Of a stretch of DNA of 64,000 nt, positions 9,627-25,305 are shown piece by piece (position 1 is the stretch's first letter; each line of letters starts with the position of its first letter). The notes beneath the pieces are model-generated. The model was not told the DNA's origin, did no database searches, and worked only from the letters and a program-made list of their open reading frames with translations. The translations under genes and the position numbers were made by a program. Source of the DNA: Liolophura sinensis (Eukaryota; Mollusca; Polyplacophora; Chitonida; Chitonidae); assembly GCF_032854445.1 (NCBI RefSeq), contig NC_088301.1:40659187-40723186 (forward strand). Reading direction: 5' to 3'.

Positions 9627-12600
9627 TCATCCTTCCCGTGCAGGGTCCAAATGTTGGCTGGGGTCGCCATGATCGGCTTTCGCCTCTGACGTAGCTTTGT
9701 CCTTTTTGCCACGGTGCATATGCTTGCCATGGCCATGCATGTGATCTTCGTGGTTGTGGTCTTTGTGGTCCCCGTGATCATCATGAGGATCGTGATGATG
9801 GTCTCCGCTGTGATCATGGACGTGCGACTCCCAGTGACCGTGCGGTTTGGCCCGGACAATGGTACAGCAAGCTATACGCCCACCGGCATCGCCAGTTTTC
9901 AAACTCGCTGGCGTTCCACCTTTACCTAGGTCGTCAGCTTTTTCATGAATCTGAAAACGTTAGTCATGACTGATGTAGACACTTGTAGAATTACATACCA
10001 TATCGTGCATGGAGAGTTCCATTATAAGACCAGGCACACAATATTCACATTAACTTTTCTTGAACCAGAATGCACTGTTCGATCAATACAAATGAGCAAT
10101 AATCATACTCATTTGCATTTTTCTCGTAGTAGTCAATACAGAAGAATCTTTTAAAACAAATTCTGCATACTAAAATGTTATGGATTGGTGTTCAGCAAAG
10201 GTGTGAATTAAATTGCACCAAATCCGTTCATAACTTTTTCCATAAAGCTACAGTCACACAGACAAATAAAACACTGGTAAAAAACATTACCTTCGCCTGA
10301 AAAGTTCAAGCTTGTGTATAATTTACAAGGTTTAATAATGTTTTATATATTTTTCTACAGAATCGAAACGTGTACTTTTCATGTTACTCTGACGCTACGT
10401 AACAGCAATAGCGTTGCGCCTTTTAGAATAACTTCGTTCGGCTTCCAACGCGAGATTGCGACATTTCCACGAGATTTCAACTGAATAGTTCTGAAATCTT
10501 TTACTTTCAAAGAATTTGACCGTCACGATGTTCAAATATCGCCGTTTTCTCTTTCTGTATCTGCGAGTTAGTTATGTTTGCATATCATACTTACGACCAA
10601 AGCTCTCCCAATAATGTTATGGTAACCAATCAGTGTGCTTCTAGAATCGTTCATGGCCACATTTGTTTTGCCTTTATCGTCACAGCGGATGTTGCCATAA
10701 TCTCCAGCATGTCTGTAAAAGTAGCAGTGTAACTGTAAACCAGACGAGGGACACAGATTTAGGGCCTATTGCTCTCACAAAACGTCACAAGGGTCTCTCC
10801 ATACATAAAATCTCTTGAAAGCCTTTCAGTGAGCAAACCCACAACAATTTTATTTGTCCCTTAAAAAGCAGTTTGCTTATTCAAACTTAAATATTGAGCT
10901 TATTGTTAAAAAACATCTTGGGTACCATTTACTCTTAATAAAAATAAGACTGCATGTCATAATAAATTTGCTTCCACAGGTACAACATTTCTTAAGAAAC
11001 GCATGAGCGTATTCCATGCAAAGAAACAGTCTCGTTATAATGTAAATTTATTTAGACCTGGTCAGGTGCTTTTGGAAGGCGTCAGAAAACCTCTTACTAC
11101 AAACTACCTGATATCATCGGTGGGAGCCCCATGATCCACCCCAAAAGGATTGAAGTGTGAGCCCGTGGACTGACAGCCATCAGTGAGGTCCCCAAACTCA
11201 TGCACGTGCAGACCGTGCTCGTGTTGCATGACGCCATCTTGAGCCTGGAATCCTTCTAAGTCTATCTGCATTTCTACGGGACCACCATATATCTGGTAGG
11301 AAAAAAACATGTTTCGCATATCAATTTACAAATTTACAAATACTCATTTGTTTTACTCGTGAAGTGATTTTTCTGAGGATTAACCATTACCTGTCATCCT
11401 ATACCCGAAAGGTTTGGGTGAAACTTCGGAGACATTCAGACTTGCAAGGTTAACTTACGTCCAATAAAGGCCCTGGGAAGTTTTCGGAAGTTTTCGCAGC
11501 GGCATTATACATAACCATTCGCAAACCTTAAGCTTATAGATAAAATGTCACCACACTTGGTAAAAGACGCAGCTTCTTAACTGTGATACTGAATGATGGA
11601 TGCTTGTGAGGATAATATTAGTCATATATACAGTAGTCAAAACAAATCGTTCTTCTCTAAGGCACTGTAGTCCCACCATTGCCAAACCATCAGCGAGTTT
11701 AAGATGTTTCACCATGGCCCATAACTACATTGTGTGTATTATGATAAAAGTTTCGCGCAATTTTGAAAAGACTGAATATCCACCTTGTCACAAGACGTCA
11801 ATAAAGACCGAGAAATATTAAACATGATACCATATAACCCTCACTATATGTAAAATGTGAATTTCGTGATCCCTTACCAATTGTCGTAAATGAACAGAAC
11901 CAGTGATCGTTGATCTTTTCTTCAATGCAACTCCCGTATTTGGTCCCATGGCACAGTGAGCATAGACGTAGTCCTCTGTAAAGAATGTAAGGAGGTATAG
12001 ATATCCACGGTAAGCTTTATTGTGGTACTGGTAGCGAGATGAAGGCATACAAAACAATTACACGTTAGCAAACCCTTTTGCAGCAGGAGAAAACGTGTTG
12101 GTGTCTGCTTTTCTTTTATTACATATAGAGACACGAATGATATAATACACTGCCTAAGGGAGCAACCATTTTCAAAGTTCAAAAGGCCTAAGGACACATT
12201 GTCACCATGTAGTGTTTACTAAAGGCATGCATGTTGAATGAAAACTCAAAACTGTACATCTTGTACATCTGTTACGAATGTAAGCATTAAGTCCAACATT
12301 GTTGGATATATAAATATATACACACTGCTTTTCAAAGGAATATGTACATATTCGACATTTTACCAGAGTGATCGTGTTTGGCGGCATCTTCCTCGTGTGA
12401 ATGCGGTCCATGGTGACCAGGGTGATCTTGTCGGTGGTCGTCATGATCGGGGCCATGATGTTGAAGAGCTCGAGCACACATTGCGCAGGCGTGTCCACCT
12501 CGACCTCCGTGGCCGCCGCGATGTCCATGATGTTCGCCATGATGTTCGCCGTGATGTCCATGATGGTCACCATGATGTTCGCCATGATGTCCATGATGGC

Positions 12601-24410: not shown

Positions 24411-25305
24411 CTCCTAACCATCAGGCCCTCGAAGCGGTCTTCAACGTAGGTAAAATGTCTTAAACAACCATGTGAACTTTTGCTGGATAAATGTTCTTTA
24501 ATCAAATATAAATGACTTGCAGATTCATGAAAAAAAGGATGATCTTGGAAAGGGTGGGTCTCCGGAGAGTGTAACATCAGGTGATGCAGGAGGTAACTTA
24601 GCTTGCTGTACCATTGTCCGGGCCAAACCGCACGGTCACTGGGAGTCGCACGTCCATGATCACAGCAGAGACCATCACCACGATCCTCATGATGATCACG
24701 GGGATCACAAAGACCACAACCACGAAGATCACATGCATGGCCATGGCAAGCATATGCACCGTGGCAAAAAGGACAAAGCTACGTTAGAGGTCGGTCATGG
24801 CGACCACAGCCAACATATGAACCATGCTGGACATGGGAAGGAGGAGCACCATGGCCATCATGACCTTGCCGACCATCGACATCATTAAACCACTGAGGAG
24901 CATTTGGTTGATGGAAATGACGCAAACAGCGTAAGGATTGCAAGCAGCAATAAGTCCTTAGTCCTTAATAAGGCATTACTGAACTGTATTCCTTCATATT
25001 TGTCATCGTCAGTTTAGAATATCTGCAAATCTGACAACAATCTCCTGATATAACCCTATATTACGAGACCCTTCATTACAATTACATGTATAAAATGTAT
25101 TAAAGTGTGGTGCTGTAATTTCATGCTGATGGATTTTTTTTTTCACTGGGGTTACTTGAAACGCTTATTCTTTGGTACACACCACAAGTTGGTGTGGGGT
25201 ACACCAATGATCTCTGTAGATCAGATATTTGAAACGTGAATTCCTACATGAAAATAGAAGTTGTATTACAGGTTTGTATGTTTACAAGTGCAACTGACCC
25301 ATCTA

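Follow-up and report, generated by a model that had tools for sequence, protein, structure and literature searches.

The window analysed here is a 64,000-nucleotide stretch of a chiton genome (C7:40659187-40723186), from an assembly whose authors have corrected the species name from Liolophura japonica to L. sinensis (PMC12441733). It holds two six-exon genes related to Cu/Zn superoxide dismutase (SOD), which lie head to head on opposite strands with 2.6 kb separating their ATGs, as the initial annotation had described. They are named M (minus strand) and P (plus strand) below. The spliced reading of M gives a product of 458 residues containing 82 histidines, where about 80 had been claimed. 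All five introns of M are bounded by GT...AG, their phases are 1, 1, 0, 2 and 0, the frame is kept across the junctions, and the splice positions are identical in P. The gene may already be annotated, without comment, in the deposited gene models. The features of the two genes are as follows.

15568..15619, minus strand: upstream block of M, 52 bp with 77% identity to P; TCACGTGA occurs in it 146 bp ahead of the ATG
15390..15459, minus strand: M exon 1, containing the start codon and an apparent signal peptide (21 residues, then RE), phase 1 donor
12364..12945, minus strand: M exon 2, 582 bp, phase 1-1, encoding the His-rich block
11878..11975, minus strand: M exon 3, where the SOD part begins (residue 218 on)
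11108..11292, minus strand: M exon 4, SOD ligands His279, His281, His296 and His304; Cys290
10595..10712, minus strand: M exon 5, SOD ligands His313 and Asp316
9627..9950, minus strand: M exon 6, SOD ligand His353, Arg376, Cys379, then the His/Asp-rich tail
17897..17948, plus strand: upstream block of P, matching the M block; holds TCATGTGA, 140 bp ahead of the ATG
18051..18117, plus strand: P exon 1, apparent signal peptide, by eye
20908..21412, plus strand: P exon 2, His-rich block, frame broken
21726..21823, plus strand: P exon 3
22128..22311, plus strand: P exon 4, with a 1-bp deletion; bridging His (H63 of SOD1) replaced by Asp
24108..24225, plus strand: P exon 5
24523..24888, plus strand: P exon 6, catalytic Arg (R143 of SOD1) replaced by Asn; its His-rich tail exceeds that of M in length

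The signal peptide that had been proposed is apparent in exon 1 of both copies, where it was called by eye from the hydrophobic core. The sites TCACGTGA and TCATGTGA are of the E-box/M-box type. No iron response element was found by Rfam at E<=5 between positions 9000 and 26000 of the window; the sole match at that threshold was a weak one to mir-297, well under the gathering score and inside a TA repeat.

The relationship to SOD is borne out by a single PF00080 (Sod_Cu) domain in M, at residues 242-382 (E=3.2e-39, 134.8 bits against a cut-off of 28.9), and the best 60 of 128 PDB matches to M all carry the name superoxide dismutase. Alignment to solved SODs places the complete set of seven metal ligands at residues 279, 281, 296, 304, 313, 316 and 353. 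The catalytic Arg376 and the disulfide pair Cys290 and Cys379 (C57 and C146 of SOD1) are also retained; the roles of all these residues are taken by us from SOD1. Sod_Cu is the only Pfam match in M at E<=1, so that the protein has no known chitin-binding domain, and the HMA domain of the copper chaperone for SOD was not found at that threshold; a search of NCBIfam returned no family. M thus has one SOD domain where pernin has three, shows none of the loss of metal ligands of the Ostreidae type (cavortin and dominin), and differs from the copper-only SOD repeat proteins in being single-domain with the Zn ligands there. P, with its bridging His gone, partly resembles the ligand-loss state of cavortin and dominin. 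In the SOD part, three introns of M and P agree in position and phase with introns of the chiton SOD1-like gene at C1:68.22 Mb, the first of them seen in the SOD1-like gene from its acceptor side alone; the SOD1-like gene has one extra intron in this part, absent from M and P.

On either side of the core of M lies a His-rich arm. The head has 51 histidines in residues 23-217; it is encoded in one exon and is His-rich as had been proposed, but its length is 194 residues (24-217) and not 170-190. Exon 2 of M contains the motif (V/I)H(V/I)H(L/I)HExG twice, together with a CAMC motif and a stretch rich in Lys, and the head has no match to a Pfam family at E<=1. The His/Asp-rich tail that had been claimed was recovered as 20 His and 12 Asp among the final 75 residues. 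The proposed metal-binding composition is supported by the His content of M, and on that composition both arms would bind metal; in the head, the Lys-rich stretch may in addition bind polyanions and the CxxC may bind Cu(I). Since exon 2 is symmetric (phase 1-1), its gain or its skipping leaves the frame intact. An internal repeat of two stretches of about 36 residues in the head was matched by none of 2000 shuffles when the segments were picked by eye, and by 16 of 2000 when the block was simply split. A 33-bp tandem repeat at 12520-12634, within M exon 2, codes His-His-Gly units; M exon 2 exceeds P exon 2 by 78 bp, and this excess lies in the tandem repeat. Two further likenesses were tried and set aside. 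By eye the exon-2 motif is like the copper strand of SOD, of which it might be a relic, but shuffles did as well in 77 and 82 of 2000 cases and the relation is not claimed, and head and tail as mutual copies were equalled by 724 of 2000 shuffles.

The similarity between M and P is very unevenly distributed. BLASTN of the two regions (E<=1e-3) recovered only exons 2-6, a 119-bp stretch of intron 1 and the 52-bp upstream block; exon 1, aligned directly, is 69% identical. With the M frame applied to both copies and gapped codons removed, the SOD core gives a dS of 1.02 and a dN/dS of 0.106 (161 codons), compared with a dS of 0.031 for exon 2 (166 codons) and 0.075 for the tail (56 codons). At the level of bases, 494 of 503 aligned positions are identical in exon 2 (9 differences), against 72 differences in 400 for exons 3-5 (Fisher p=2.4e-18). 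The SOD core is old and under constraint. A core dS of about 1.0 beside nearly identical arms fits gene conversion restricted to the His-rich parts, and conversion confined to these blocks would be the simplest account. Such a diverged core flanked by near-identical arms is a clear case in which to study gene conversion in low-complexity coding blocks.

The frame of P is broken. Exon 2 carries a 1-bp insertion near its start and more small indels, and owing to these and to the deletion in exon 4 the spliced reading runs into stops; an indel also accounts for the tail of M being shorter than that of P. As the core of P was constrained for most of its history, the frame breaks are either recent or errors of an assembly built on 14x HiFi (PMC11068029). 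P is probably a former second working copy in which two catalytic residues were lost before the frame broke, unless the breaks are assembly errors. The loss of these two residues points to a non-enzymatic role for at least one copy. A quicker decay of the P core is unsupported: taking the SOD1-like gene as outgroup gave 4 changes against 4.

The genome (609,464,459 bases in 632 contigs) was searched for other genes of this kind. PF00080 gave 13 exon-level matches out of 22 scored candidates. The SOD1-like gene accounted for three of these, M for two and P for one. Two more lay at C7:7.99 Mb and one at C1:69.06 Mb, and contig C6 had three in a single frame at 81.35 Mb as well as one, resembling the copper chaperone, at 4.79 Mb. 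With exon 5 alone as query, 4 of 6 candidates were matches and the genes at C1:69.06 and C7:7.99 Mb were missed, so such match counts are lower bounds. The arms as queries led genome-wide only to M and P, with 3 matches of 6 candidates for the head and 2 of 2 for the tail. The gene at C1:69.05-69.06 Mb retains all ligands, and that at C7:7.99 Mb has Lys at the His120 position. Compared without their first exons, both paralogues resemble M and P in an undivided exon 4 and in the ACC signature that closes the domain, and differ in having no His-rich tail. In a tree of six SOD cores, in which one paralogue has one extra junction residue and the third gene described below is partial, M and P were grouped (91% and 0.92) and the other branches are unsettled.

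A third, divergent SOD-like gene lies on the plus strand about 3.5-4 kb before the window, at C7:40655143-40655265 and ~40655579-40655677, the last exon having been reached via a weak match at 40655645. These are exons 5 and 6 with the splice positions of M and P, without the DDLGKGG loop and without a His tail. The equivalent of exon 4 was not found, a 200-N gap lying upstream at 40654636-40654835, and a motif scan for more exons of this gene gave nothing new. Separately, C6:81349122-81350489 is a 702-codon open frame with three SOD-like matches, akin to the copper-only SOD repeat proteins of oysters. A search for relatives in viral contigs gave five pattern matches, none of them confirmed.

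The bivalve framing of the earlier comparison does not apply to this chiton genome, and the resemblance to cavortin, dominin and pernin is partial: all are SOD relatives, but M is single-domain with a complete active site and those proteins are reported inactive. In PMC6530089, pernin, cavortin and dominin are described as without SOD activity, and pernin and cavortin as binding several metals and forming particles; PMC6508894, at odds with this, words a Perna viridis protein as having three active domains, and gives 12.4% His for Unigene62001_2A of that species. Pernin, a plasma protein of Perna mussels, is like M SOD-related and rich in His and Asp, but it has three SOD domains and M has one, and the histidines of M are mostly in the arms outside the domain. 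Cavortin and dominin are single-domain Cu/Zn-SOD relatives of molluscs and are secreted, as M apparently is; unlike M they are reported inactive, dominin having five ligand histidines mutated, and the descriptions consulted mention no N-terminal His-rich block such as M has. Bacterial periplasmic SodC has a His-rich N-terminus before its Cu/Zn-SOD domain, thought to aid metal loading; that extension is much shorter than the head of M, and SodC is not known to have a His tail. The histidine-rich glycoprotein (EP protein) of Mytilus belongs to the C1q family and, unlike M, is not an SOD. It is described as a His-rich metal binder of the haemolymph, in the same source that gives dominin 19,389 Da from sequence (PMC6530089). 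For oyster extracellular SODs in which two ligands are conserved, activity is considered unlikely (PMC9118643). Five of seven Hyotissa dominin homologues retain all seven sites (PMC12784942), and a secreted mollusc SOD with its active site complete is therefore nothing new in itself. Among the matches listed, titles and abstract openings gave no description of a mollusc SOD carrying a His-rich block at its N-terminus.

That M is an active extracellular Cu/Zn SOD with metal-buffering arms is the reading we consider moderately probable. The ligands, the Arg and the cysteines are all kept in M, in contrast to cavortin and dominin, which makes catalytic activity the likelier assumption. The protein would be secreted, form an SOD1-like dimer and dismutate superoxide in the haemolymph or at the radula, and two long, probably flexible arms would bind Cu2+, Zn2+ or iron ions in large number, dampen the redox cycling of the bound metal and help to load the SOD core. 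The head may have joined the gene as a phase 1-1 exon. We count against this reading that M is the sole unbroken copy and has a tail shorter than that of P, that P lacks two catalytic residues, that the Rfam search between positions 9000 and 26000 gave no iron response element at E<=5, and that bivalve plasma SODs are reported inactive. The same reports favour a haemolymph metal carrier without enzymatic function, of the pernin/cavortin/dominin type, in which the SOD fold would be a scaffold and the arms would carry the bulk of the metal. The 82 His in 458 residues of M are comparable to the content of Unigene62001_2A (PMC6508894), and the bridging His and the catalytic Arg are gone from P; the seven ligands, Arg and disulfide cysteines retained in M and the purifying selection on the core speak against it, and we consider such a carrier rather unlikely. 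Exon 2 might instead be optional or unrelated, the main product being a plain SOD with a His tail, since the frame survives its skipping and it is frame-broken in P; yet its splice sites are intact in both copies, where it lies between exons 1 and 3, and in M it is open from end to end, which makes this distinctly improbable. That both genes are in decay or wrongly assembled, with no working protein made, is extremely improbable: the several small indels of P, the shortened tail of M and the 14x HiFi basis of the assembly have to be set against a fully open M with GT/AG introns and strong constraint on the core between the two copies.

The biology of chitons, molluscs whose teeth are tipped with iron, gives these proteins a possible setting. 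Their haemolymph iron tops that of all other animals studied (PMC7850002). For the question of how they carry this load and turn it into magnetite without oxidative damage, a candidate link between superoxide control and metal buffering is offered by an SOD that is apparently secreted, keeps its active site intact and has dozens of additional histidines. According to PMC6351634, the 22 cusp-specific proteins of Cryptochiton include an ATOX1-like copper chaperone, a hephaestin-like protein and a Cu/Zn-SOD predicted to be extracellular, and another cusp protein, RTMP1, has a His-rich region. The level of the Cryptochiton SOD transcript in mineralised regions is within 4-fold of that in non-mineralised ones, and in the limpet radula SODC is reported to be expressed from Stage I to Stage IV (PMC9263180). 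A matrix protein of the radular teeth or shell plates, whose arms would nucleate or hold iron or calcium mineral, would suit the cusp SOD, the His-rich RTMP1 and the shell-formation role proposed for oyster dominin (PMC6530089). The absence from M of any Pfam match at E<=1 other than Sod_Cu, and hence of a known chitin-binding domain, argues against it, and we regard a matrix role as improbable. As three chiton SOD-like genes end without a His tail, the Cryptochiton cusp SOD may be kin of one of these. Returning to an active M with metal-buffering arms, a more elaborate form of it can be offered tentatively, as unlikely in its entirety: a self-buffering chiton SOD whose arms would serve as a reloadable metal reservoir kept uniform by gene conversion, whose core would be split into catalytic and non-catalytic copies, and which would serve both haemolymph iron and tooth mineralisation.

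Other features were observed elsewhere in the window. An open frame of 253 residues at 51597-52355 (plus strand) matches Phage_integrase (PF00589, E=8e-7), with DUF3504 under the cut-off, and is perhaps a tyrosine-recombinase mobile element. A protein kinase exon lies at 44737-45093 on the plus strand (PF00069, E=2e-13), and a tandem repeat with a 35-bp unit, 7.1 copies and 98% matching occupies 60872-61119.
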